A stretch of 43,470 nt of DNA from a virus. Below are positions 3,213 to 38,271 of this stretch, piece after piece. Below the pieces are notes generated by a model, which saw only the letters and a program-made list of their open reading frames with translations, did no database searches and was not told the DNA's origin. Position 1 is the first letter of the stretch; the number at the start of each line of letters is the position of its first letter. Location of the stretch: positions 1 through 43,470 of IMG/VR virus record IMGVR_UViG_3300035180_000278, one strand, 5' to 3'. The position numbers and the translations under genes are program-made.

Positions 3213-3243
3213 TACACACTCAATTCAGAGATACGCATACCTA
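3209..3243 (-). promoter_or_regulatory. Candidate late promoter, copy 5 (tail fibre and lysis genes)
   Basis: On the minus strand TAGGTATGCGTATCTCT is followed by 12 bases and TAGGAT. The initial TAG is the stop codon of the 2525-residue gene. A start about 7 bases after the hexamer would fall near 3202, inside the hairpin loop. Confidence 0.65.
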
Positions 3244-6200
3244 ACGCTTGAAGCCGAAGGCCAACGCCGCTGGGTTTCCTGTCTCACCATCGGCCAGCGC
3301 ATTGGCACCTGTTATGGTTCGATTAACCTGGGCACTAGGTAGACCTGTCACATCGCCCATCAGGTTAATAGCTGTCTTACGGAAGGCGTCATCAAACTCA
3401 CCCTGATGCACTTGCTTTGCAAACTTCCCAGCGTCACTAATCAAACGCAAACCAGCAGGTCCTGCATAGTCACGCGCTTTGTCATCGGTGCCCGTTACCA
3501 TTTTTGCAGCTTCACCAAATTCACGCACTACCACCATCAAACCCATGAGGTAGTCCAGTTGTGCGTTGATGAGCTTTTGTGCCAGGTTTTCATCATCGTC
3601 ACCGTCGCCACTCGGCACCAGTGCTTGCTTCAGCATCATGCCCAATACCGCTGGCACGGTGTACAGCATGAGGTACTTCGCGGCCAGTTTACCCTTGCTT
3701 TTCTCGGTCATGGTGGCCGTGACCCCCAAGTTGAATGCCGTATTCATGAAAGAATAAAACACGGTGAACAGTTTTTGTGCAGGGCCGCCGCGCTCGATGG
3801 CCGACTGATCCTTTAATTCACCGCCACCTTGGCTATCAATCACGGCCTGGTCGGCCAATGCAATCGCACGCTCGTCGTTATCTTCCTGAGCCAGGGCCTT
3901 GTTGTAGGCACCCAGCCAGGTGGGCACGTCGACCACGCTTTGCATTTGCATCATCAGGAAATAGGTAGATCCCTTAACCGCGCCCATGGCCGCACTTTCG
4001 TCCTGCACTTTGTTGCGCAGCTCGTTCAATTCACGGAAGCGAGTGCGCGCACGGTTCTCCATAAACTCAGACATCTCACTCACCTTGCGCTTGGCAGCCA
4101 TCGGGTTAGCCGTGTACTCGGCAATGCCCTGCCCTATCCACTTAGGACCCACATGCACGATAGATTGGTTAAACCCAGTGATCTGCATCGCTGCCGACAC
4201 CACGTTGAAGCCCAGACCTGATGCGCTGATACCTTGGCGCAATCTACCCAGTGCCTTGTCAACACCCTGTGCCGTACCGCCGTCGCCTTCGGCAATTGCC
4301 TCAGACCATGTTTTAAGTTGGCGCTTAAAATCAGGACCATACTGGCTACGGATGGCCGTGTCGATACTCTGTGATTTTAGTAACCGATTAGAATCAATCA
4401 ACCACTCATGCCATGCCAGGTCGTGAATAACCTCGTTCACACCTGAGTACAAACCTGACAGGGTGTAAAGCAATGGTCTACCATTCACCTCTTCCACGCG
4501 ACCCTTGGTAAAACTGCGACGGGTGGTGGCCGTGGTGTAGGCACCCTGTAGCTGGCGCTTTGCCGCTTCGGCGTCGTTGTGTTCTTCGGCACGTTGGCTT
4601 GCCATTGGGTCAAACTTAACCGGGTAGTAGCCACCGCGCATTGACACCATGGTGCCGTCGGCAGCCTTGATGTCGAATGGTTTGTGCTCAATCCACTCGG
4701 GTTCTTTGCCGTAGACATTGCGCTCTTTCTTGGCGATCAATGGGCGATAGCTTTCGAAGTGATCCCATACCTGTTGCACCGCATTCCACTCGGCAGGGGT
4801 CAGTGTTTCCAACACCGGCATAATTTGCTCAATGGTCCAGCCTTCGCCACCGAGTAAGCGCTGCATATTGCTTTCGTTACCCACGTTCAGTGCCATGGCA
4901 ATGCGCGCTTCGCGGTTCAGACTGCGATCGATTGATGCAAAGTATTGGCCCTTACCACCCATCTTGCCCTGCTTGAACACCGGCGCCATGATCTTGGTCA
5001 GTGCAATTGTTGCCTCTGCACGCTTTGTTGTTTCCCATGACGAGCGCTCATTGGCAGGTTGCAGCAGATACTTCCACACGGTGCCGCCATCTTTGCCGCC
5101 ATCCAACACCCTGATAATTGTCGAGGCTTTAATGTGCGCAGCAAAGAAAGTCTTTAACCCTTGAATCGCTCTGCCGGTGTTGGTTGTTGGGGTGCGCATG
5201 TCCGCTGTACGGCCATCAGCATGTTCATTAATGCTGGCCACCATTTCATCACGCACGGCCTCATACGCACGTTGATCTTTAGCGGTGAGTAGTCGGTTCT
5301 TTAAACGGCCCAGGTGTTCGATCTGTTTGACAGAATCAACCAGACCTCTGAATTCCTCGACCGTCATTTCCTTATACGATTGACGGTTGGCTTCATTCTG
5401 CAATGCTTCAGGAATATCAGGCGCCAAGCCTTCCAGTTCTTTCGCAGCCAACCATGCTGCCAGTGACTTGCGCTTGTCGATAGTCTTGAGTGAGGTTGAC
5501 TTACGCAGGTCGAAGCGATCCAGAAGTGCATCGATCTGGTCAGTATAGTCAGGGTCTATGCTCTTGCGCGAGCTGTCCTTGTCAAACTTCTTGAAGTAAT
5601 CGATACCCTTCTCAACTTCTTCTTTTGCATCATAGGCGGCACGCGCCATCATGGTATTCAATACCTGGTTGCGCTTTTCAGCTAAAGCCGCAGCGATGTC
5701 GCCTTTACGGTGAGCCTCAGCCGACGCCTTGGCCGCACGCACTTCGGCGCCAGTGTAGAGTGATGGCTTGATGTTGCGGATCTTGAGCCGTGCGATGCTT
5801 GCCTCGGCAAACATCTTGGCAGCCTTGGCCAGAATGGGTTGCTTACCTAAGCCCTTGGCCATAGTATTGGCTTCGGTCAGCAGCACCTTTTCACGCGCAC
5901 GGTTGTGAATAACCTGATCAGCAGCACGACTGATTGCTTCCGGTGATGACAGATCACCGTGCCCCTCGAGCATACGTGCATCGGTCAGGTTCTCGATAAC
6001 ATCAGTGGGTGCATCGGCAGCGGCAACGGCACGCACCAACGCGTCACCCGATGTGAAGCCTGGGATAATTTCAGATAGCACATCGGGGTTGATACCGTTG
6101 GGCGACACCATCCGGTTCGTATTCAGCTTTTCAATAACCTCAGCCGGTAGATCCATGGCCTTCAGATCACCCAGGTCAAGACGCCCGGCGTGTACTGAGG

Positions 6201-9200
6201 ACAAATCCACCTGGTCACCATTGCGCACATCCTGATCGCGGGTGTAGTCATAGGCAGTGGAACGCTGCACATCACCAGATAGCTCGGCCTTGAATTTATC
6301 CTCGAACTCGTGCAGATCCACCTTGCCGTTTTCGTCGCGCTCAAGGTAACCATATTGACCCAGTGCCTCGGCTATATCATCCAGCGAACGACCCGACTTG
6401 CGCCATACAGACTTGCCGAATATACCACTGGCAGGTTTGTCGGCAGGGTCAGTACCCCAGGTTGAAATAACTTGCTCTTTACTCAGGCCACCCAGCTTGG
6501 CAATGGCTGCAAACAGACCATCGATGGTTTCATCCACATGCTCGGGTGATGACTTTGGTGGCACATACGCACCCACCTTGTCGGTGTTCTTACCGGTAAG
6601 CCATGACCATGCACGGTACACCGGTTGACTCATTACCTCGGTGCGCACCTGGGATCTAATCTCACGACGCAATGCTTCAGACTTTTGCTTGAGTTTGTTG
6701 ACTTCTTTTGTATGCGCATTGTGCAACCACTCCATATCGCGCAGGCCGCGTGCCTGTAGATACTGAATTGCATCGAGCGTGCCCTGCATACCCTCGTGGT
6801 GATACTTCTCAAATTCCTCACGCGACATACCGGCCTCTTGTGCCGATGCAAATAGCGGTTGCATACTACGCGCATGTTCAGCCATCTTGATCTCATCGGT
6901 GGTAGCCAACATACGATCAAATACACCACGCACGGTGTCATCCAGCTTACCGGCTTCGGGATGGCCTTCAAGGAATTGCTTGAGTGATTTATAGACGTTG
7001 AGCAGCCACGCACGGAAGGTCTGGAATACGCGCTGCAATTCTATGCTCGGCGCTTCACCCTTGAACAAGTAAGCCTCGAATGCTTCAGCAGTGCGCTCAT
7101 GGTGGGTGCGTTTCTCTTCAAAATCCATGGTGGCCCACTGGCGCAGTTGGTCAGTGAGGTCGCCTTGAATACCGTGCCACTTGAGTAGCGCGTGTGTGTC
7201 ATCGAGGATCTGTTGCTCACCAGGTTGAACCCCTGGTTTGTTCAGTAGCTCCCCGGCGAGTGCGATGTCATTCTCAAAAAAGAAGTGACCGGCTTCGTGC
7301 AGGAAGGTAGACAGATCTGCATTTTTCAGCAGACTGATGAGGTTGGTTTCAGGGTTGAATGAGCCGCGTGCGGGTTGGTTAAATTCGCCGTTACTTTCGC
7401 CGCGCAACTCAATAGGCTCACCGGCCGTCATGCGCTTTGGCTGGCCCTTTTCCTTTTCAACCTGGGCGTCGAGTTTGTCTATATATTCAGACGCATCAGT
7501 GTCAGCATTAACCAATTGGTCAACACCAAAGTAAATACCTGAGCCATTCTTCTCAGCAACACCCACGTGCTTAGGATGTGGTAAGTCTTGAATACCTACG
7601 GCGATGATGTAGCTCTGGATTGCTTGCTGGGCAGAACGAAGTGCGTCGTTAAGTTGTTCGACTGTTGCACCAGGTGCAATGAATAAGAACTCATCACCAC
7701 CATTGCGGAACGGGATCAGATCCGCACCGGGTATTTTCTGAACCTCTTCAGCAGCAATGTGAGCAATGTTTTTGAAAACGATGTCAGCCGTTTTAAGGCC
7801 GAGCGCTTCGGTCAGGCCGCTAAGGTTGGACACATCAAGGCCCGCGACGGGTATTGCTTTGTCTGACTTTTTAACCTGTTCTAATGCGCGAGCCAATGAC
7901 TTGCGTACATCGTTGGCAGTGTAGAAACCTGTCAGCTCGTCGCGGTCAGTATAGGGTTTGGTGCCGTCTTGTTGTTGCTGGGTGAGCCCAGCTTGTTTGG
8001 ATTTACTACTGTGCGAGTCTAATGCAAAATTGTCGGGCGCAATTAAGCTGGTTGTTGCGCTGACGCCCGGGCTTCCCTTTCTTTCAAGCGTGCGTCCATA
8101 TCCCTCTTCGCCTGTTCGTGCTTTTCCTTGTTCTTGTTGATTACCTTGTCCAATGCTTCGGCTAACTCTTGCGGCTTGTCCTGTAGATGCAGCAAGCCAA
8201 GTCTGCCCAGCCTCATTTCTGTTGACATTTTGTTCTCCTTTCGGCATTTGCTCGCGCGTGTCATTTTGTACGCGAGTGATTATTTCGTCGATGCTACCTT
8301 CTAGTTTAGTCTGTGCACCGTAGAGTGCGATCCCTTTGGCGCCGGGTACTTTCGGTGCCGCAATTTGATCAAGACCATTCTCTTTGGCAATAGCTTGAGC
8401 TTTCTGTGCGGCCATGTCAATGGCGGCCTCGCTGGCGAATCCGTCTTTAACCAATACTGCAAAGCGGCCACCGCCGCGGCGTGCTGCAATCTGGCCCTCG
8501 AAACTTTCAGCAACCGCAGAGCCGAGTTGTTTCAATACGGCATCGGTGCGTGCGTTGGCACCCATAGCCTTGTTGGCACCACCCAAGTTGAACAGGTCAA
8601 ATTCAACATAGTGATACCCACCCACCTTTTTGGCGCGCACCATAGCCTGACGCAATTCAGTGTCCGAGTATAACCCGGTCATATCATCGCGCATGGTTTC
8701 AGGCATAACGGCCTCAGCCTGTTGTTGCGTGAGGCCATGCTCTGCCGAGCGCTTCGCATGGTCATCGAACATGGCCAGCTCAGGGTCAACCTGATCAGAT
8801 ACCAGATCGTAACGCTGATTAAACGAATCACCCATGACAGACTCACCACGCACACCGAGCGTTTGCTTTTCAAACATGGCTTCGGGTGTGATGTTGAGTT
8901 GTGCAGCACGCACTGCGTTGTGCGATGCAATCAGGGTAGCGTACATTTCATTAGCCGCTGGACTAAAGCGCCCTACCGTGTTCATTTGATCGAGTATCTT
9001 TTGCTTGACGACATCGTGACTCGCCATAAATTCATCGCGGCCACTGTCGTGCTCAATTAGTTGCTCCATTTCAGCGTGCAATTTCTCGGCATGGTTATCC
9101 ATAAAACCCTTGGCCTCGGCACCACTCATACCATCGGGGTCGGTCTTGAGGTGTTGCAGTAAGCCCTGGCTGTATTCGGTACCCGCAATCTTGCTGGCAT

Positions 9201-10818
9201 ACTCTTCAATCGGTATGCGCATGTCGGTGCCAGTGGTCAGTGATTGCTCATACTGCGCAGCGATTGATGGTGATAGCTCATAGATCTTGTCAGCCACGCC
9301 CGACTGCGCAAATTCTTTGGCTGAGATATATAGCTCTTGCACAGGGCCATCTTCAGCAGCAGACTTTACGAAATCAGAGAATGTGTTGGTGTCGCGCTGG
9401 TTTACCTTGGAGGCCGCAGCGAGCTGGTTGAGTTGTTCAATGACTTTGGTTTGTTGTTCAGTTTGTTGGGCCGTTTTAATTTTTGAATCATGCCCCGCCG
9501 CCCCAGCAAATGCGCCACCCGTTAAGCCGCCTACAAACAAACCGGCTACCATTTGCTCACCAACTCCTTCTGTTAGTGATTGATTAGGATCAATATTATG
9601 AGCTGTCGCCATGTTAGCGGATAACTGTTCACCACCACCTTGGATAGTTTCGACAGCGGCTTCGTTGGCAAAACCCTTACCGAAGCGTGGTAAAAATGCG
9701 CCCCCTTCACCAATGATCTTGCCAAAGAACTTGCCACCCACCAGATTGGTTGCAGCATCCACTGCACCTGCACCAATACCTGACATTTCGCCAGTTTGAG
9801 ACGCGGTGTAAATACGTGCAGCACTTGGGTTGAATCCCTGCTTAATGAGCGCTTGATAGGTTGGTGATTTTTCAATCTTGTCCTGAGACAGCTTTTCCAC
9901 ATTACTCTGAGAGCCTAGCGCGCCCTGCGCATAACCGACAGCCCCCTCAGATCCAGCACCAAATTTACTGGCCATATTAACAGCCGCGTCCACCCCGGCT
10001 TTCTTTGCAGCCTCGGCAGACATCCCCTCGATCAGTGCTTGCTTTTCCACCTGCATCGAGGCGCCACGAGTGAGGTACGCAGTTAATGCGAGGGCCGCCG
10101 TTGTGGGTAGCGATCGTATTGCGTCGCTCACCATCTTGACAGGTGACAGGTAGGCCGCCTCTCCCGTGTCGGTCGTGGCATATTTTAATGGATCAAATTC
10201 TGCCTTTGTCTTCGCTGACCGATCATCCATAATTAAATCAGCGGCGGTCGTCTGGTTACGCGCAAACCGCGATAGCCCCATCGTCACACTATTATCGCGC
10301 AGGTTTTTTAATTTAGCGTCATCGTTTTTATAAAGAACCGCCGCGTCGGTATCACTCAAGGTGAACGGGTTGACGGTATCTATTAACTTGGCACCCGCCC
10401 CCATCAGATCGACAATACCTGCAGTACCCGAGTGGCCTAACTGCGACAGTGTTGTTTCAACACTCGACATTACCCCGGCGTCGTCATGCACCAGCTTTGC
10501 AAACTCAGGGTCGAGCGTGATTTTTTCGCGCAGCTTGGGGGCATCCTTTGTTTCTTCGTTCAATACCTGAGAATCTGCAATGCGATGATATTCATCGGGT
10601 TGAGCTTTGACTGCGGCAGCAGTTGTCCCTAATAGATCTGCCACACGCTTGGCACGTGCATATTCATCAGGGTTAGTTTGCACGGCCACGGCGGCCGATG
10701 ACTTGAAGGCATCCGACTTACCATTTTCCTCGGCCATCATTTGATCTAGGTAAGGGTTAGACTTAGCTGCCGGTGTGGAAGCCTCTTTGTCCTGCATCAT
10801 TTTTAAGTAGTCGGTCAT
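3241..10818 (-). CDS. Giant internal/ejection virion protein with two GGDEF-like domains and a metallopeptidase-like motif
   Basis: The 2525-residue protein is coded by 17% of the genome and lies where T7-like phages keep their internal core/ejection proteins, so it is probably ejected with DNA. Seen in order: Ala/Gly-rich helical N-terminus (1-690); a degenerate GGDEF-like domain (about 690-830, starting DDMTGLYS, with RGGGRF at 781-786 in place of GGDEF); a polar linker (864-925); a second GGDEF-like domain (about 950-1110, starting DELTGFYT, with GGDEF at 1040-1044, no RxxD inhibitory site at the expected spacing); HEAGH at 1174-1178 followed by a helical region, as in metallopeptidase domains of phage polyvalent proteins; a long helical middle; and LFTVFYSFMNTAFNLG near 2350, a motif I associate with large polyvalent-protein C-termini. 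ATG overlaps the upstream stop (TAATG). Enzyme activity is inferred only. Confidence 0.85.
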   Translation of the reverse strand: MTDYLKMMQDKEASTPAAKSNPYLDQMMAEENGKSDAFKSSAAVAVQTNPDEYARAKRVADLLGTTAAAVKAQPDEYHRIADSQVLNEETKDAPKLREKITLDPEFAKLVHDDAGVMSSVETTLSQLGHSGTAGIVDLMGAGAKLIDTVNPFTLSDTDAAVLYKNDDAKLKNLRDNSVTMGLSRFARNQTTAADLIMDDRSAKTKAEFDPLKYATTDTGEAAYLSPVKMVSDAIRSLPTTAALALTAYLTRGASMQVEKQALIEGMSAEAAKKAGVDAAVNMASKFGAGSEGAVGYAQGALGSQSNVEKLSQDKIEKSPTYQALIKQGFNPSAARIYTASQTGEMSGIGAGAVDAATNLVGGKFFGKIIGEGGAFLPRFGKGFANEAAVETIQGGGEQLSANMATAHNIDPNQSLTEGVGEQMVAGLFVGGLTGGAFAGAAGHDSKIKTAQQTEQQTKVIEQLNQLAAASKVNQRDTNTFSDFVKSAAEDGPVQELYISAKEFAQSGVADKIYELSPSIAAQYEQSLTTGTDMRIPIEEYASKIAGTEYSQGLLQHLKTDPDGMSGAEAKGFMDNHAEKLHAEMEQLIEHDSGRDEFMASHDVVKQKILDQMNTVGRFSPAANEMYATLIASHNAVRAAQLNITPEAMFEKQTLGVRGESVMGDSFNQRYDLVSDQVDPELAMFDDHAKRSAEHGLTQQQAEAVMPETMRDDMTGLYSDTELRQAMVRAKKVGGYHYVEFDLFNLGGANKAMGANARTDAVLKQLGSAVAESFEGQIAARRGGGRFAVLVKDGFASEAAIDMAAQKAQAIAKENGLDQIAAPKVPGAKGIALYGAQTKLEGSIDEIITRVQNDTREQMPKGEQNVNRNEAGQTWLAASTGQAARVSRSIGQGNQQEQGKARTGEEGYGRTLERKGSPGVSATTSLIAPDNFALDSHSSKSKQAGLTQQQQDGTKPYTDRDELTGFYTANDVRKSLARALEQVKKSDKAIPVAGLDVSNLSGLTEALGLKTADIVFKNIAHIAAEEVQKIPGADLIPFRNGGDEFLFIAPGATVEQLNDALRSAQQAIQSYIIAVGIQDLPHPKHVGVAEKNGSGIYFGVDQLVNADTDASEYIDKLDAQVEKEKGQPKRMTAGEPIELRGESNGEFNQPARGSFNPETNLISLLKNADLSTFLHEAGHFFFENDIALAGELLNKPGVQPGEQQILDDTHALLKWHGIQGDLTDQLRQWATMDFEEKRTHHERTAEAFEAYLFKGEAPSIELQRVFQTFRAWLLNVYKSLKQFLEGHPEAGKLDDTVRGVFDRMLATTDEIKMAEHARSMQPLFASAQEAGMSREEFEKYHHEGMQGTLDAIQYLQARGLRDMEWLHNAHTKEVNKLKQKSEALRREIRSQVRTEVMSQPVYRAWSWLTGKNTDKVGAYVPPKSSPEHVDETIDGLFAAIAKLGGLSKEQVISTWGTDPADKPASGIFGKSVWRKSGRSLDDIAEALGQYGYLERDENGKVDLHEFEDKFKAELSGDVQRSTAYDYTRDQDVRNGDQVDLSSVHAGRLDLGDLKAMDLPAEVIEKLNTNRMVSPNGINPDVLSEIIPGFTSGDALVRAVAAADAPTDVIENLTDARMLEGHGDLSSPEAISRAADQVIHNRAREKVLLTEANTMAKGLGKQPILAKAAKMFAEASIARLKIRNIKPSLYTGAEVRAAKASAEAHRKGDIAAALAEKRNQVLNTMMARAAYDAKEEVEKGIDYFKKFDKDSSRKSIDPDYTDQIDALLDRFDLRKSTSLKTIDKRKSLAAWLAAKELEGLAPDIPEALQNEANRQSYKEMTVEEFRGLVDSVKQIEHLGRLKNRLLTAKDQRAYEAVRDEMVASINEHADGRTADMRTPTTNTGRAIQGLKTFFAAHIKASTIIRVLDGGKDGGTVWKYLLQPANERSSWETTKRAEATIALTKIMAPVFKQGKMGGKGQYFASIDRSLNREARIAMALNVGNESNMQRLLGGEGWTIEQIMPVLETLTPAEWNAVQQVWDHFESYRPLIAKKERNVYGKEPEWIEHKPFDIKAADGTMVSMRGGYYPVKFDPMASQRAEEHNDAEAAKRQLQGAYTTATTRRSFTKGRVEEVNGRPLLYTLSGLYSGVNEVIHDLAWHEWLIDSNRLLKSQSIDTAIRSQYGPDFKRQLKTWSEAIAEGDGGTAQGVDKALGRLRQGISASGLGFNVVSAAMQITGFNQSIVHVGPKWIGQGIAEYTANPMAAKRKVSEMSEFMENRARTRFRELNELRNKVQDESAAMGAVKGSTYFLMMQMQSVVDVPTWLGAYNKALAQEDNDERAIALADQAVIDSQGGGELKDQSAIERGGPAQKLFTVFYSFMNTAFNLGVTATMTEKSKGKLAAKYLMLYTVPAVLGMMLKQALVPSGDGDDDENLAQKLINAQLDYLMGLMVVVREFGEAAKMVTGTDDKARDYAGPAGLRLISDAGKFAKQVHQGEFDDAFRKTAINLMGDVTGLPSAQVNRTITGANALADGETGNPAALAFGFKR
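8043..8228 (-). CDS. Possible nested gene inside the giant virion gene
   Basis: An ORF of 61 residues runs in the +1 frame within the linker-coding part (residues 864-925) of the 2525-residue gene. Its ATG at 8226-8228 is preceded by AAAGGAG with six bases between, a stronger SD than most genes here. The product starts MSTEMRLGRLGLLHLQDKPQ and continues as a charged helix rich in Lys/Glu/Ala (NKEKHEQAKRDMDARLKERE), protein-like composition quite unlike the random shadow frames around it. The host-frame linker at this point is Gly/Gln/Arg-rich and could tolerate overprinting. Function unknown. Confidence 0.55.
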   Translation of the reverse strand: MSTEMRLGRLGLLHLQDKPQELAEALDKVINKNKEKHEQAKRDMDARLKEREARASAQQPA

Positions 10819-25549: not shown

Positions 25550-27046
25550 CGCATAAGGGTCATACTCCTTGACCTGTTGCCTTGTGATAGCACGCACATC
25601 GGCAAGCGACGGTGTGTCCATGAGACCGAGCACATAAGCCGAGGCCCAGTCGGGTGATCGACCAATGCGTTTCTCAATGGCGTCGCGCCCTTCGACCTTG
25701 ACCACTGTGCCCTGTAGCTCCCAGGTGGGTGCACACAGGTCGGCACGCAGTCGATTGTCCGGTGGGAGTTGCAGGCCTATGTTGTTGGCTGGGTCCAATG
25801 CCTCCCTGAACTTCCACCATAGCTCACTGCGCTGGTTCAAAAACTTGAGGCGGCCTGACTTGTCACTCGAGGTGGCCTTCTCAGCCACGTTGACACCCAG
25901 CACATGCTGGCCAGCACTCATCAGAAAGTCGTAAGGTGATGAACCCACACCAATTACGTCGAGGTGTATCGGTGCACCATTGCGCATACTGGCAATGACA
26001 AGGCCAGCGACAGTTGGGCCATCAGGTGTTTGTGTACCTGGATAGGCCAGGGCCTCATCGAACCAATTACCATGGCGTCGTGCAATGATCGTGTTATCAC
26101 GCCCACCTCGGGCCACGTCCACACCCATTGATGACATCTTGGGCTTCGGCAGCAGAGGCTTCCAACGGGCCATAGCAGCCTCGACCCACGCAGTTGGTAT
26201 CACTTGCCATGGGTCATCCTCGATACCCGCTTGGAAGTCGCCATAGAGCATTTGTGAGCGTAGTGGTTCAGGTAGTGATTGCAAGGTGGCCATGTATCCG
26301 GTTCCCATTAGGTAAGGGTTATCGCTGACGCGTGAAGGTATGAAGGTGCGAGACATAGGCTTGACCATCTCACCCTTGTGCTCGAAGGGGTCAGGGCCAT
26401 CAGCCTCAACGTCTTTGCCATCGATACTGGCAAACCAGCGCAACTCGCCAGGTTCAGCAGGTACGGGATGCTTGGGATCTAGCCATGGTCCGAAGAAGTC
26501 TATGATCCATCGACCTTCAGCATTGGTGGGTGGGTTGAAGGTGAGTAGAGCCTGGCATCGCTGTCCAATGGTTGTGGTACGCAGCCAGCCGAGTAGGAAG
26601 CGCAGTTGATGCTCCATGAAGTTGGCTGCTTCGTCGAATACCAGCAGATCATGCGGCCGTCCCTGATACTTTGTCTCATCGCCAGGGTTAGGCACCGAGC
26701 CGAACTCAATCTGTACACCGCGATCAGGCAGTCGCCAGATCCTTTCTTGCCCGTTAAAGCCATCACGCCCACCTAATAGCTCAGTAAAACGATCGATAAT
26801 ACCGGTGAGCTGTGTTGCCTCACGTCGCAGTATCATCACACGCTCGTGTTGTGTTAGTGCCTTACCACAGGCCAGATCCGACTTACCACCACCCGCCGCA
26901 CCGCCATAGCCGATGATGTCGGCCTTGGAGTTATAAGCAATTGATTGCGGACCCGGTAGCGGTGACCATGGGTTGCGTCGCTTTAGTTCACGCGCAATGA
27001 GTAATGCCCTGGCTAACTGATCCTTAGACGAGATCTGAGCCGTCAT
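25547..27046 (-). CDS. Terminase large subunit (packaging ATPase-nuclease)
   Basis: The preferred ATG at 27044-27046, with AAGG just upstream, gives 499 residues and overlaps the small subunit by 23 bases; a longer reading frame starts inside that gene without support. Walker A is GYGGAAGGGKSDLACG near residue 47 and Walker B is LLVFDEAAN. The C-terminal RNase H-like nuclease begins at MGVDVARGGRDNTIIARR with its first acidic residue. It cuts and pumps DNA into the procapsid through the portal. Whether packaging is headful or cos-type cannot be read from the sequence. Confidence 0.94.
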   Translation of the reverse strand: MTAQISSKDQLARALLIARELKRRNPWSPLPGPQSIAYNSKADIIGYGGAAGGGKSDLACGKALTQHERVMILRREATQLTGIIDRFTELLGGRDGFNGQERIWRLPDRGVQIEFGSVPNPGDETKYQGRPHDLLVFDEAANFMEHQLRFLLGWLRTTTIGQRCQALLTFNPPTNAEGRWIIDFFGPWLDPKHPVPAEPGELRWFASIDGKDVEADGPDPFEHKGEMVKPMSRTFIPSRVSDNPYLMGTGYMATLQSLPEPLRSQMLYGDFQAGIEDDPWQVIPTAWVEAAMARWKPLLPKPKMSSMGVDVARGGRDNTIIARRHGNWFDEALAYPGTQTPDGPTVAGLVIASMRNGAPIHLDVIGVGSSPYDFLMSAGQHVLGVNVAEKATSSDKSGRLKFLNQRSELWWKFREALDPANNIGLQLPPDNRLRADLCAPTWELQGTVVKVEGRDAIEKRIGRSPDWASAYVLGLMDTPSLADVRAITRQQVKEYDPYA

Positions 27047-27479
27047 CAACCTTGCCCAATACGCCAGCGGCAGTGAGCAGTGCCAACTCGGCACGCATAT
27101 CCGCCTCACTCATATCGCTCAGATCTAACTTGCCCGAGATCTTGAGGTGAGAATTCTCACGATACTTCTCAGGCGCATGAGCCTTGAGTAAGAAGATTGA
27201 CAGCGTATCGCTGTACTTGGTGATGGAGCCACAGGGTGCACCCTGGTGGAATACTGGTTCGTCACTGCCTTCAAACGCACGCCGGTGTGCCTCGTCCTCG
27301 AGTGCTGTGACCCCAACGACCAGGGCCTTATCCCAAGCGGCAGCAAACACTTCGTCAGCAGCTCGCCAGTTGTAGGCCGTCATCCGGGTGATATCAATGG
27401 CCTTGCACGCTTTACCAACGTTGCAAGTCTCTGATAGTACAGCAGTAAATGCCGTTAGTTTTTCAGGTGTCAATTTCAT
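27024..27479 (-). CDS. Terminase small subunit
   Basis: A protein of 151 residues. The N-terminal part has a helix-turn-helix-like segment (CNVGKACKAIDITRMTAYNWR), followed by AHRRAFEGSDEPV, YSDTLSIFLLKAHAPEKYR, which is the typical small terminase signature, and an acidic helical C-terminus. It should recognise the packaging site and recruit the large subunit encoded next. It follows late-promoter copy 1, whose hexamer lies just upstream of the ATG, so the leader would be very short. Confidence 0.9.
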   Translation of the reverse strand: MKLTPEKLTAFTAVLSETCNVGKACKAIDITRMTAYNWRAADEVFAAAWDKALVVGVTALEDEAHRRAFEGSDEPVFHQGAPCGSITKYSDTLSIFLLKAHAPEKYRENSHLKISGKLDLSDMSEADMRAELALLTAAGVLGKVDDGSDLV

Positions 27480-27485
27480 AAGGCC

Positions 27486-27520
27486 ATGCTACTACGTGTT
27501 TTCAGAGTTACGCACACTAA
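27486..27520 (-). promoter_or_regulatory. Candidate late promoter, copy 1 (terminase)
   Basis: Minus strand TTAGTGTGCGTAACTCT, 12 bases, then TAGCAT. This is the least conserved copy and lies within the last codons of the HTH gene rather than starting at its stop. The predicted start near 27479 coincides with the small terminase ATG. Confidence 0.55.
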
Positions 27521-27737
27521 TGGCAATGCGCATTATGCTGTGCCGCCTGCGACCCTTGCATATATCGGCAATGCACGAACGACTCACCTCAAACCATTTG
27601 GCCAGGTTAGCGTAGGTATCACCCTCATCGCGCATTTTCAACATCAGGTCCACATCGTGATCAGATAATTTTGCGTTGTGATGACACTCACCAATTCGAT
27701 AACCTCGGTCGTTCACAAAAATATACTTTTTAACCAT
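27492..27737 (-). CDS. Small HTH DNA-binding protein, candidate late regulator
   Basis: The ATG at 27735-27737 has GAGGGGAT six bases upstream and gives 81 residues starting MVKKYIFVNDRGYRIGECHH. The segment LSDHDVDLMLKMRDEGDTYANLAKWFEVSRSCIADICKGRRR is a clear helix-turn-helix of the type seen in small phage proteins (L.D.EV..I..L...G.SY..LA..F.VS...V..IC.GRRR). It lies between the iteron cluster and the first late promoter, so it may bind either one; activation of the late promoters is a testable guess. The C-terminal codons contain copy 1 of the late element. Confidence 0.8.
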   Translation of the reverse strand: MVKKYIFVNDRGYRIGECHHNAKLSDHDVDLMLKMRDEGDTYANLAKWFEVSRSCIADICKGRRRHSIMRIAISVRNSENT

Positions 27738-27777
27738 TTTTATCCCCTCACAATTCGCCGGTTGTTGCATGTATAAA

Positions 27778-27972
27778 CTAGTACACCTAGTACACCTAGT
27801 GCACCTAGCGCACTAACTTTCTATATATCCCTCTAGCTACTAATATAGTCAGCTCTACAATCCCATATATAAATAGGTGTACTAGGTGTACTAGGTGTGC
27901 TGTCGCCCTGTAAACATTGGGCTAAGATCTAGTACACCAAAATTAAAAAGGTGTACTAAGGTGTACTAGATC
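27778..27972. repeat. Iteron cluster with AT-rich core, candidate replication origin
   Basis: Four tandem 9-mers CTAGTACAC (two perfect, then CTAGTGCAC and CTAGCGCAC) fill 27778-27813. The reverse form GTGTACTAG occurs twice perfectly and once degenerately at 27877-27903. One more forward copy is at 27929 and two reverse copies at 27951 and 27961. GATCTAGTACACC (27926) and GGTGTACTAGATC (27960) pair as an inverted repeat. The 63 bases between the first two blocks are AT-rich with TATATA runs. The cluster fills the gap after the primase-helicase gene; it could instead be an operator or packaging site. Confidence 0.75.
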
Positions 27973-27976
27973 ACCC

Positions 27977-30127
27977 CTAAAACGGTAAAGTTTTGTCAAC
28001 TGACCAAACATTCCGCTGTTTTTTGTCAATACACATTCTGACCTTGCGATAACCGAGCGAGGACAGAATTTTGACAACGCGCATCTCAACACCCTTATTT
28101 ATGCTCTTTTGATCGAAGCCTAAACACCCCAAAAGGATCTCAGAAACACTCACCCACCCCTTCGCTTTTGGAACAATATCGGTAATATGAGTCGGGTTAT
28201 CCAACCAAACATCGATCTCAGGTAACCACGGATCTTGAATAACATGCGTGTTGTGTACATCAGTGGCCAATAATTCCGCACTGCGGTATGCCACACCCGA
28301 CTTCTTGAACATCACAGCGCCCTCAGCCCATAGCTGCAGCATGTCACGCTTGATTGCATCCACATCAACCTTGTGGGTCAACACCGGTAACCAGCGACGG
28401 TTACCTGTCTCATCAGCTAAAAACTCGGTCTGATTAGTGGTGCCCATAAAGATCAGGCGACGCTGGAAAGTAGTGCCGAACTCCTTATATTTAGGTATCC
28501 ACTGATCCTGGGTGCGCGTGATAAATGCCTTAATACCTTCCAGCTCCTTCGTGTGTAGACCGCGCAACTCCCCGATCTCAGCCACCAGGCGGCCACGCAT
28601 CTTGCGCGCCAGATCGTCATCCTTCTCAGCGAAGGACACCTCGGTAAACAGATCCATGCTCGGCACCATGGCCGACACACCGGTAGACTTACCCACGCCC
28701 TGAGCACCCACCAAGATAGGCACCATGTCCGCCTTGCACCCAGGTGATAACACGCGGCCAGCCATGGCAGACCATATATATTCAGAAACAGAATCAACAT
28801 AAGCATTGGCGTCGACGCCAAAATAAGTGAAGAGGAAACTCTTAACACGCGGCACGCCATCCCATTGCAGCTTGTTCAGCCAGATCTGCGCAGAATCAAA
28901 CCGGTTACGCCTGGCAATCACCAACACCACATCTCGGATCAGATCCCGACCGATAGGCTTGAACGATTGACGCTCGAACGCAATGCGCAGCTCGGTAAAA
29001 TCCTCATCAGAAAAGCCTTGCCACTGTTCATCACCCCGGTGAAACATCAGTTCATCACGGAAGAGGTCATGGCCAATGTATGCCTGGCACATCGGGAAGA
29101 ACTGCAGCGCTTTCTGCAAATTGTCTACCGTGGCTTCAATGCTGCCATTCTTGTCGCGCTTGAACGATGGCCTGACCACCTCACCCTTGGGCGCCTCAAT
29201 CACGGCAAAGTCAGTGGAGGTATCCTCGACATAGCCTATCGCCTCAAAAAAGTCCGCATCGCTACGACCGGCACAGTGGCCATGCAAACACTTGAAATGA
29301 CCCTTCTCATAGCCATTGGACCCAGCACGAAACCAAACCGTCGAGCCATCACCGTCAGATCCCGTCGAGTGATCAGCCTTCCAAGGACAATCAATAATCA
29401 GCGCACCATCACGATCAACACCGTGTGCGGCCAGCTCGATAAGATCAGCCACCGGGTCAGGCAGCTCTATGTGAGCCTCACGCTTGCGCGCACCGCCACT
29501 CGCTCCAGACGAAACACCACCGGCAAACTTATCAGCCATGGCTTGCCACATCTTGTCAAATTCGATTAGGCCGCCATTAGGTATAGACGCCGGTAAACCT
29601 TGCGCCCATTGATAGCGCGTACCGCTGGGGTGCGTACCAATAGCCACAAATTGCTTGCCATCACTCAGCAACTCAACCACACCGCCGTCGACAACGATCT
29701 TGCGATAAGGCAGCTCACCCTCAATCTGGATGGCCAGCAGACACTTACCGGTATCCACGCGATAACGCATTGGCAATTCGTAGCCCAAGGTATGCTCAAT
29801 AAATTGACTGATGGCAAAAGCCTGGGCAGGGTCAGCCACGTCGATATCAATACCGCGCACCTTGCGTGTCTGAATGCAAATGCCATAGTCAGGCTGCACA
29901 GACCAGGCTTTAAACTCCTTGCCGTTGGCCTTTAGCTCTGTCCACCCTGGCAGACCTACCACCTTACCCGCCTTGTTGTACACGCTGGGGGTCTTACCCA
30001 GGCCGCGCATCTTGCTATCAGGTGAAATGGTGGCCGTCGGGTTGCTCACCACCGGCAAAAGATCCACACCCAGCCCCAGAATTAAATCGAAATGGTCCCA
30101 CTCTTCGCGTGTCGCGCCGTATTGCAT
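27977..30127 (-). CDS. Primase-polymerase / VirE-type helicase
   Basis: The 716-residue protein has two regions. Residues 1-220 look like a bifunctional primase-polymerase (KTPSVYNKAGKVVGLPGWTE, GIDIDVADP with a catalytic-type DxD, then DGKQFVAIGTHPSGTRY). Residues 370-716 form a VirE/VapE-type SF3-like ATPase with Walker A VGAQGVGKST near 475 and GNRRWLPV downstream (an arginine-finger-like motif). Between them a Cys/His patch (CLHGHCAGR) may bind zinc. It would open and prime the origin. It follows the Cro-like gene by 24 bases and has SD GAGGAA, so it is expressed leftward once repression ends. Confidence 0.88.
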   Translation of the reverse strand: MQYGATREEWDHFDLILGLGVDLLPVVSNPTATISPDSKMRGLGKTPSVYNKAGKVVGLPGWTELKANGKEFKAWSVQPDYGICIQTRKVRGIDIDVADPAQAFAISQFIEHTLGYELPMRYRVDTGKCLLAIQIEGELPYRKIVVDGGVVELLSDGKQFVAIGTHPSGTRYQWAQGLPASIPNGGLIEFDKMWQAMADKFAGGVSSGASGGARKREAHIELPDPVADLIELAAHGVDRDGALIIDCPWKADHSTGSDGDGSTVWFRAGSNGYEKGHFKCLHGHCAGRSDADFFEAIGYVEDTSTDFAVIEAPKGEVVRPSFKRDKNGSIEATVDNLQKALQFFPMCQAYIGHDLFRDELMFHRGDEQWQGFSDEDFTELRIAFERQSFKPIGRDLIRDVVLVIARRNRFDSAQIWLNKLQWDGVPRVKSFLFTYFGVDANAYVDSVSEYIWSAMAGRVLSPGCKADMVPILVGAQGVGKSTGVSAMVPSMDLFTEVSFAEKDDDLARKMRGRLVAEIGELRGLHTKELEGIKAFITRTQDQWIPKYKEFGTTFQRRLIFMGTTNQTEFLADETGNRRWLPVLTHKVDVDAIKRDMLQLWAEGAVMFKKSGVAYRSAELLATDVHNTHVIQDPWLPEIDVWLDNPTHITDIVPKAKGWVSVSEILLGCLGFDQKSINKGVEMRVVKILSSLGYRKVRMCIDKKQRNVWSVDKTLPF

Positions 30128-34055: not shown

Positions 34056-35834
34056 ATGAAACAAACGCTTATATTCGACATTGAAGTGTATTCAAATTAC
34101 TTCTTGATCGCATTTAAAAATGTAGACACCGGTAACGTGCGCAACTTTGAAATGTTCAACGACGCGCAGCCGCTACAGCTCGACACGATCAAGAAGATCC
34201 TGGCCACGTATCGTTTGATCAGCTTTAATGGCAATCACTTTGACATGCCATTGCTGGCTATTGCACTCAATGGTGGATCAAACCGCAACCTCAAGGCCGC
34301 GTGCGACGCCATCATTAACAAGGGCCTGAAGTCGTGGCAATTCGAGAAGCAATTCCGCGTCAAGCTACCCGCAGCAGACCACATCGACCTGATCGAAGTC
34401 GCCGCAGGTGTGGCCAGCCTCAAGATTTATGGCGGACGTATGCACTGCAAAACCATGCAGGATCTACCCATTGAACCCGACGCCACCATACTGGAAGAAC
34501 AGCGCGAGCTGATGCGCGAGTATTGCGCCAATGACTTGCAGGTAACACTGGATCTATATAAGAAGTTGCTACCGCAAATCGAGTTGCGCGAGCGCATGGG
34601 TGTAGAGTACGACGCCGACCTGCGCAGCAAGAGCGATGCACAAATAGCTGAGACAGTGCTGGCGCACGCGGTATCACTATCCATGGGTAAGAAGGTGGTG
34701 CGTGATGACATCGCCACCGGCACCCAGGTGCGCTATACCCTGCCCCAATTTGTTCAATTCAATACTGAGCAGTTGCGCACCGTGTTGGCAACGGTATTGG
34801 CCACCCCTTTTGTGGTGACCGACACCGGCAAGATGATGTTGCCCAAGGCACTGGATCAAGCCATCACCATCGGGACAACCATCTACACCATGGGCATTGG
34901 TGGCCTGCACTCTACCGAGCAGAGCACCGCGCACTTTGCCGATGACAACACCATCCTGGTTGATCGTGACGTGGCCAGTTATTACCCGCGCATTATTCTG
35001 AACTCAGGCCTGGCCCCCGGCGAAATGGGTCAGCACTTCCTGAGTGCCTACCGTTCAATCGTTGAGCAACGCCTGGCCGCCAAGAAGTCTGGTGACAAGG
35101 TAACCGACGACGCGCTGAAGATTACGATCAACGGATCATTCGGCAAATTTGGCAGCAAGTACAGCGTGCTCTATGCACCCAGGCTATTGATACAAACCAC
35201 CCTCACCGGTCAGCTTTCCCTGTTGATGTTGATCGAGCAGCTTGAAGGCGCGGGTATCAGCATCGTATCGGCCAACACCGACGGCATTGTGATCAAGTGC
35301 CCCCCACACCTCGAGCTGGACATGGACAACATCATCGGCGCCTGGGAAATGATCACCGGCTTCGACACTGAGGCCACCTATTACAAAGCGATTTATTCCA
35401 AAGACGTGAACAACTACATCGCAGTGAAGCACGGATCAGTAAAACTAAAAGGCGTGTATGCCATGAGTGGGTTATCTAAAAACCCAACTAGCACAATCTG
35501 TATCGATGCCGTCATTGCCAAACTCACCAAAGGTGTGGACCTGCGCGAAACAATCGAAGCCTGTACCGACGTGCGCAAATTCATATCGATTAGATCTGTC
35601 AAAGGTGGTGCCGTGAAAGAAGGTTACACCCTGGGCAAAGCGATACGCTGGTACTACGCCACCGGTGTTGAAGGTCAGATCACTTACAAAATTAATGGGT
35701 ATGCCGTGGCACGCACAGAAGGTGCCAAGCCACTGATGACCCTGCCAGAAACATTGCCAGACGACATCGATTACGACTGGTATGTGCGCGAGTGTGAATC
35801 AATTATTAACGACATAGGGGCAGGAAATGAGTGA
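34056..35834 (+). CDS. Family B DNA polymerase with 3'-5' exonuclease
   Basis: The 592-residue enzyme replicates the phage genome. Exonuclease motif I is FDIEVY (Asp8, Glu10), motif II is SFNGNHFDMP, and motif III is YCANDLQVT. Polymerase motif A is DVASYYPRII (Asp305), motif B is KITINGSFGKFG (Lys355) and motif C is ANTDG (407-410) in place of DTDS; the second, catalytic Asp (Asp409) is kept while the first is Asn. It is short for family B. SD AAAGGTAA precedes the ATG. It is followed by a TraR-like gene overlapping by 8 bases. Protein priming is not indicated. Confidence 0.9.
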   Translation: MKQTLIFDIEVYSNYFLIAFKNVDTGNVRNFEMFNDAQPLQLDTIKKILATYRLISFNGNHFDMPLLAIALNGGSNRNLKAACDAIINKGLKSWQFEKQFRVKLPAADHIDLIEVAAGVASLKIYGGRMHCKTMQDLPIEPDATILEEQRELMREYCANDLQVTLDLYKKLLPQIELRERMGVEYDADLRSKSDAQIAETVLAHAVSLSMGKKVVRDDIATGTQVRYTLPQFVQFNTEQLRTVLATVLATPFVVTDTGKMMLPKALDQAITIGTTIYTMGIGGLHSTEQSTAHFADDNTILVDRDVASYYPRIILNSGLAPGEMGQHFLSAYRSIVEQRLAAKKSGDKVTDDALKITINGSFGKFGSKYSVLYAPRLLIQTTLTGQLSLLMLIEQLEGAGISIVSANTDGIVIKCPPHLELDMDNIIGAWEMITGFDTEATYYKAIYSKDVNNYIAVKHGSVKLKGVYAMSGLSKNPTSTICIDAVIAKLTKGVDLRETIEACTDVRKFISIRSVKGGAVKEGYTLGKAIRWYYATGVEGQITYKINGYAVARTEGAKPLMTLPETLPDDIDYDWYVRECESIINDIGAGNE

Positions 35835-38129: not shown

Positions 38130-38271
38130 GGTAGCTAAACTCGTAGACTGCCGCACCTGCCAGTACTACCAAACGATGCGGGGTCGTTGTCACAGCACAG
38201 CGACCTGTGTACTAGCTGATCAGTATAAGGGTAAAGATTTTATTCAATTATGGAGCGTACCTAAATTATGA
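38104..38271 (+). CDS. Small cysteine-rich protein, probable zinc-binding
   Basis: A protein of 55 residues. Four cysteines are arranged CRTC (residues 16-19), then Cys29 and Cys35, consistent with a small zinc-binding knuckle. A basic N-terminus (MKEEKKQREVAKLV) precedes it. The stop overlaps the next ATG (ATGA at 38268-38271). Function unknown. Confidence 0.6.
   Translation: MKEEKKQREVAKLVDCRTCQYYQTMRGRCHSTATCVLADQYKGKDFIQLWSVPKL

Follow-up and report, generated by a model that had tools for sequence, protein, structure and literature searches.

An iteron array around an AT-rich core beside the primase-helicase of a BPP-1-like temperate phage: a probable replication origin whose repeats vary together with the helicase wing

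Among the described replicons with which the locus studied here can be compared, PICIs carry a rep-ori that drives plasmid replication; it is located immediately 3' of rep and has an AT-rich region with one set of iterons on either side, and the same source states that no other known bacterial replicon has this iteron/AT-rich/iteron layout (PMC6092414). In SaPIs, according to PMC7581432, the iterons are recognised by the C-terminus of Rep, apparently as two hexamers. The same paper describes SCCmec Cch2, a self-loading helicase whose C-terminal domain binds direct repeats situated 3' of the helicase gene; this resembles what is proposed for the present locus, but the putative Cch2 origin differs in its 5-nt iterons within a 23-bp direct repeat, in a separately encoded primase and in the helicase family. 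For pRN1, PMC4234260 reports a Prim-Pol, an SF3 helicase and a winged helix with an origin 3' of the gene, an arrangement like that proposed for the window, and a requirement for a 100-nt stem-loop at that place; the same was proposed for Bordetella phage BIP-1, where other repeats were reported and rejected as the origin. In P4, the crr lies directly 3' of alpha; among its type 1 repeats (TGTTCACC) there are opposed copies, and two are spaced by 9 bp. Among the open-licence PMC papers searched, none was found that connects VapE phages with iterons, nor one that reports a binding or replication assay on this phage or its relatives.

The window, as the whole stretch of 43,470 b analysed here is called, is the virus record IMGVR_UViG_3300035180_000278, and its genes follow the order of Bordetella phage BPP-1 (Table 1). 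Left of the array are found the terminase, a portal-type connector and more structural genes, in the BPP-1 structural order. Past the small HTH gene come the primase-helicase and cro- and cI-like regulators, and the right side of the window holds exonuclease, polymerase, SNF2-type helicase and integrase genes. The BPP-1-like (Rauchvirus) order, that is primase - small HTH gene - TerS - TerL - portal, with cI/cro and exonuclease-polymerase-helicase-integrase on the opposite side, is therefore present, and by this gene order the window represents a BPP-1-like temperate phage; the helicase of BPP-1 itself is of the D5_N type. A 2,525-aa ORF (3241-10818) occupies the place of bbp10, the giant structural gene of BPP-1.

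Table 1. Features of the array and of its surroundings, in window coordinates
Feature	Position	Strand	Remarks
Terminase small subunit	27024..27479	-	context
Small HTH gene	27492..27770	-	92 aa; first gene past the array; relatives in BPP-1 (bbp27) and JessA, not beside the array elsewhere
Block A	27778..27813	+	four head-to-tail iterons, unit CTAGTACAC, spacing 9 bp, 0/0/1/2 mismatches
AT-rich core	27814..27876	.	63 b, 69.8% AT; proposed melting site
Block B	27875..27901	-	three reverse iterons, spacing 9 bp, the third with one mismatch in frame AGGTGTACT
Block C	27926..27972	.	one forward and two reverse iterons (27929-27969), adjoining the primase stop codon
Primase-helicase	27977..30127	-	716 aa; proposed initiator; Prim-Pol-like N-terminus, VapE/SF3-type helicase, C-terminal winged helix
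C-terminal winged-helix domain	27998..28171	-	residues 653-710; predicted structure, coordinates computed from the gene start
Beta-hairpin wing	27998..28051	-	residues 693-710, covarying with the unit; R697, Q704, R705, N706 and W708 in the window
Phage's own polymerase	34056-35834		

The array takes up the 206 b between the primase stop codon (27977-27979) and the HTH gene, as had been described in an earlier note made from the letters of this DNA, and its closest iteron ends at 27969. Of the roughly ten copies counted in that note, nine were recovered with no more than one mismatch to the frame AGTACACCT (gene sense), five in one direction and four in the other; the tenth, a decayed copy (CTAGCGCAC), is reached only with two mismatches to CTAGTACAC. 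The forward block of four, the reverse block of three and the third, mixed block were all located, and the AT-rich spacer of 63 bases was likewise confirmed; its AT content falls at the 99.2 percentile among all stretches of this length in the window (50% AT). Block C also contains a perfect 13-nt inverted repeat (27926-27938 and 27960-27972), with 21 nt separating the arms. The densest 195 b hold eight sites with at most one mismatch; among 300 letter-shuffled 9-mers, 299 gave three or fewer and one gave seven. Moreover, all six occurrences of GGTGTACTAG in the 43,470 b fall inside the array, and none is found when it is read backwards. The whole-window total of 13 matches with at most one mismatch is not unusual, as 13 was reached in 7 of 100 shuffles; what is significant is the clustering of the repeats and not their total number. 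An exact lone copy of CTAGTACAC at 38207-38215, between two ORFs of the rightward early region and 10 kb from the array, may be a chance occurrence or a regulatory site.

The product of the gene adjoining the array has a VapE match in Pfam (3.5e-59), plus a Prim-Pol match. In its predicted structure (mean pLDDT 87.9, pTM 0.53), a C-terminal winged helix ends in a beta-hairpin (693-700/703-710). The closest solved structure to this model is 7pds, PriRep1 with dsDNA, which aligns over 391 residues (model 316-713, winged helix included; Z 31.1) and is listed under the molecule name 'Similar to D. nodosus vapE'; the N-terminus resembles the pRN1 prim-pol (Z 12.8). When the C-terminal domain (mean pLDDT 75.9) was searched by itself, the fold matches were all weak (best Z 6.9), many of them being winged helices. 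By homology and prediction, the primase is an initiator-type AAA+/SF3-type helicase with a C-terminal DNA-binding domain, and the strand register of the modelled hairpin should bring 697, 699, 704, 706 and 708 onto one face. No Pfam match to an initiator of the Rep_3 family (winged-helix, non-helicase) was obtained for the ten window proteins scanned, which include the neighbours of the array.

Like the window, SaPIbov1, SaPI1 and EcCICFT073 have two iteron sets around an AT-rich region, immediately 3' of the gene for an initiator-helicase; PriRep1, which we take to come from a staphylococcal island, adds a likeness in structure on the SaPI/PICI side. Three features of a PICI-type rep-ori are found in the window, namely the two iteron sets with the AT-rich region, the position 3' of the initiator gene and, by homology and prediction, the type of helicase. 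A difference from PICIs is that the array here belongs to a complete phage, which carries terminase, head and tail genes of its own and in which Prim-Pol is fused to the helicase; the terminase, the head-tail connector and the further genes in BPP-1 order speak against a helper-dependent satellite, and the element is not itself a PICI. With respect to P4, the unit AGTACACC differs from TGTTCACC at two of eight positions. However, the P4 crr consists of two 120-bp repeats and the ori annotated in P4 lies apart from it, at more than 4 kb, whereas a single cluster and no second one was found within the 43,470-b window, and alpha has Toprim and D5 domains without a VapE match, whereas the window primase combines Prim-Pol and VapE; with neither a second, distant cluster nor a Toprim/D5-type initiator, an origin of the P4 type was rejected. 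The complete-phage setting, taken together with the PICI and P4 likenesses, thus suggests an element that would work like a PICI/SaPI and P4-type replicon, yet is not a PICI.

Single-sequence scans of viral and genome contigs with the window primase returned no relatives, and alignment-based searches were needed. Primase loci were gathered by conserved helicase motifs, that is independently of the array: 207 loci were collected, of which 198 are usable and 130 distinct, and when the C-terminal 400 residues are grouped at 90% identity they fall into 53 clades. Among 5,426 E. coli genomes, 101 carry a gene closely related to the helicase; in one order, a close relative was present in only 4 of 394 genomes. 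A 7-mer present at least four times within the 300 b after the stop codon was found in 104/113 loci, and in 0/108 for the upstream stretch. As the unit finder was seeded with units seen in the data, a seed-free repeat score served as an unbiased control; it reaches at least 7 after the stop codon in 40/53 clades, against 0/159 in shuffles, 2/53 in the gene interior, 2/45 upstream and 1/49 at 700 b further on. A unit with at least four sites is present in 116 of the 130 loci and 40 of the 53 clades; the 13 clades in which no such unit was found include some with broken or truncated genes. The layout of tandem block, core and opposed copies recurs in 57 of 60 clade-unit combinations, the core has a median of 64 b, and its AT content exceeds that of its own locus in 56/57.

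Layout and position are conserved while the sequence of the repeat is not. The number of different units is 42 before re-framing and 37 after it, the latter among the 112 loci used for trees, and the four E. coli prophages L422, L425, L426 and L427, all of one family, carry at least three iteron types (TGTTACCAC, TGTACCAAC, TGGAACCAC). In YeP4, APSE-1 and ACF1, opposed blocks of 9-bp repeats are likewise found directly 3' of the primase; the unit is different in each of these phages and also in JessA, where the array is weaker. In BPP-1, opposed pairs of 9-bp repeats are found just upstream of bbp27 (locus L008, about 26606-26712), with bbp28 placed between the repeats and the primase like an insertion. 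Given the D5_N-type helicase of BPP-1, the layout is not confined to one helicase family. Across the relatives, the primase-helicase is the constant neighbour of the array.

A long stem that could form from the opposed blocks had also been pointed out in the earlier note, and the opposed arrangement of the repeats explains its existence: as ssDNA, blocks A and B of the window give a 20-pair stem in a fold of -41.5 kcal/mol (z -8.1). An origin of the stem-loop (cruciform) kind, as proposed for pRN1 and BIP-1, in which the hairpin and not the repeat would be recognised, is nevertheless very improbable, as the stem is not preserved in the relatives. Indeed, when a mirrored iteron copy deviates, pairing is kept by its partner at only 5 of 87 positions. 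The gene-side block B is spaced at 9 bp in 83/88 cases, whereas block A, on the far side, is looser (7-23 bp), an even spacing of 9 bp being seen in only 11 of 53 combinations; a continuous stem is therefore not conserved, and no stem kept across relatives despite sequence change, as expected for the pRN1 type, was found. BPP-1, a close relative of BIP-1, has its opposed repeat pairs, and in this family the iterons are conserved and not the stem. As judged from these comparisons, the conserved element is the repeats.

The other two roles left open at the outset, operator and packaging site, were weighed on the genes that surround the array. As an operator, the array would be bound by the HTH protein or another regulator and would control the HTH-terminase-late operon. 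In favour of such a role, the array is placed just upstream of the HTH gene, for which a weak match to a resolvase-type HTH was obtained, and BPP-1 retains both the repeats and the HTH gene despite a helicase of another type. The array, however, remains beside the primase where the following gene is unrelated: it is followed by a homologue of the HTH protein (P0002) in BPP-1 and JessA, but by none in YeP4, APSE-1 and ACF1, and in five of the six E. coli prophages fetched the gene after the primase is that of antiterminator Q. No sigma-70-like promoter was found at 27480-28100, and the iteron unit tracks the primase wing (see below). Control of the late operon as the function of the array is accordingly quite improbable; the HTH gene does not explain the array, and of the two binders suggested earlier the helicase fits, by the tracking of its wing with the unit, while the HTH protein does not. 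The array could regulate the late operon as well. The small HTH gene heads the late operon, at the place where the E. coli prophages of the family have Q, and it might be a late regulator. A packaging role, in which the array would be a pac or cos site and the small terminase subunit, whose gene starts about 300 b away, would bind it, is extremely improbable: in APSE-1 the array is beside the primase and the annotated packaging gene about 5 kb away, and in five of the six E. coli prophages fetched Q and lysis genes follow, not terminase.

The variation of the unit follows that of the C-terminal wing of the primase. In the largest clade (55 loci, 8 units), the protein columns that share most mutual information with the unit are 705 and 704. 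In a matched between-clade control, where the same-unit loci of two clades were compared with the other-unit members of those two clades (31 comparisons), the top nine of 719 columns in excess identity are 697, 704, 705, 709, 708, 706, 696, 699 and 707. These two analyses used the first frame of the units; for the tree-based tests that follow, units were re-framed to bring AGACAACCT into register with the TGT-type units, and three rare units were placed by eye. A tree of 112 tips, built solely from helicase residues 330-640, requires a minimum of 72 unit changes, compared with 79-87 in 20 shuffles. In independent pairs, A or C at unit position 7 matches F,Y or W at 708 in 9.4 of 11 pairs on average, and the reverse is never seen; with five further unit-residue associations, p values of 0.002-0.016 were obtained in six of seven tests, and the seventh, TA with L704, failed (p 0.22). 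Of the five-residue wing codes seen at least twice, 15/17 pair with one unit when register is allowed for, in a tally that used the units before re-framing and is not phylogenetically independent; the exceptions are LVCRW, with two units one base apart, and VLFKF, also with two.

The exact unit can be predicted across clades from residues 697, 704, 705, 706 and 708 with a mean probability of 0.61 (leave-one-clade-out; 28 combinations, 80 of 112 loci, those whose unit occurs in at least two clades). Five random variable columns give 0.11 (maximum 0.19 in 40 draws), as do all 278 variable columns outside 690-716, and the recognition helix (678-690) gives 0.20. Among the loci whose units have AG at positions 3-4, the window included, R697 and Q704 are present in 15/15, and W708 of the window pairs with C at position 7, as the rule expects; the APSE clade is an exception, in that W708 is kept where F/Y is expected. 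The rules of association were chosen after seeing the data and were written down before most of the held-out loci were fetched. In these 21 loci, scored by hand, the 704/705 rules were right in 8 of 9 applicable cases (L404 wrong) and the 708 rule in 16 of 18 (L377 and L381 wrong, L420 counted as right with a weak unit), while L372, L383 and L384 are truncated or have no usable unit or wing. For seven of the 21 the C-terminus was already present among the training loci, and all seven belong to the nine of the 704/705 test, so that the held-out result lends weak support. L033 and L089 encode proteins 99.9% identical over residues 1-680, yet they differ in wing and iteron. Taken together, the comparisons favour the view that the wing reads the iteron as a transferable, swappable recognition code, and it is probable that about five residues of the C-terminal beta-hairpin would read the 9-bp iteron, with F/Y versus W at 708, for instance, corresponding to A versus C at position 7. 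If this is so, F708W in a protein of the TGTACCAAC type should shift its preference to TGTACCCAC.

Wing codons and iterons are close together on the DNA, and it could be argued that they covary solely through physical linkage, moving as one recombining cassette, without any reading of the iteron by the wing. The choice of synonymous codons towards the end of the gene weakly follows the unit as well (three codons only), and same-unit pairs from different clades are somewhat more alike in their cores (0.63 versus 0.55) and in their end codons (0.52 versus 0.42). Against this, columns 680-689, which are almost equally linked, predict the unit at 0.16 versus 0.55 for 700-709 and 0.61 for the five wing residues, and cross-clade same-unit pairs have only about half of their codons in common at shared residues. 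Of the 1,169 different-unit pairs within the large clade, 392 show at least 90% identity between their AT cores, so that the iterons to the left and right have changed while the core stayed fixed. The loci L066 and L072 offer an example, as a single base separates their units and this base is altered in copies to either side of a nearly identical core (0-190 b after the stop), a pattern indicative of concerted evolution of the iterons. Likewise L044 and L073, VapE-phage contigs that their IMG/VR names assign to a single source genome (IMG 2837389702), have a near-identical AT core with different iterons and wings; a counter-example is given by the APSE-type contigs L130 and L131 of another single genome, whose origins are identical. 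Linkage contributes to the coupling of wing and iteron but does not suffice, and as its sole cause it seems unlikely.

The array is very probably the replication origin of the phage, bound by the adjoining primase-helicase; the candidate origin of the earlier note is supported by the comparison, in which the layout 3' of the primase is found in most relatives and the unit tracks the wing. By analogy with SaPI/PICI Rep and P4 alpha, the best reading of the binding is that it occurs through the primase's own C-terminal winged helix, whose beta-hairpin would read the sequence of the 9-bp iterons. On each of the two opposed blocks, copies of the protein would form a helicase ring, the two rings facing in opposite directions; the AT-rich core in the middle would melt, and the same primase-helicase would unwind and prime both forks, giving bidirectional replication, in which the polymerase of the phage may extend the primed forks.

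In such an arrangement the iteron/AT-core/iteron origin, described as exclusive to PICIs, would now be found in a large group of complete temperate phages, and satellites and phages would therefore be linked by their replicon. The wing and all the iteron copies appear to switch in concert around a nearly fixed AT core, which has probably produced many replication-specificity groups among closely related prophages; this raises the question of how six to nine iterons flanking a fixed core change together. The family may thus be regarded as a natural experiment on the recognition of an origin by its initiator, and with pairs such as L033 and L089 the proposed code can be tested by a few point mutations. 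Such specificity groups perhaps keep co-resident prophages or satellites from firing or titrating each other's origins, and they could matter for the co-residence of prophages and for orthogonal replicons.
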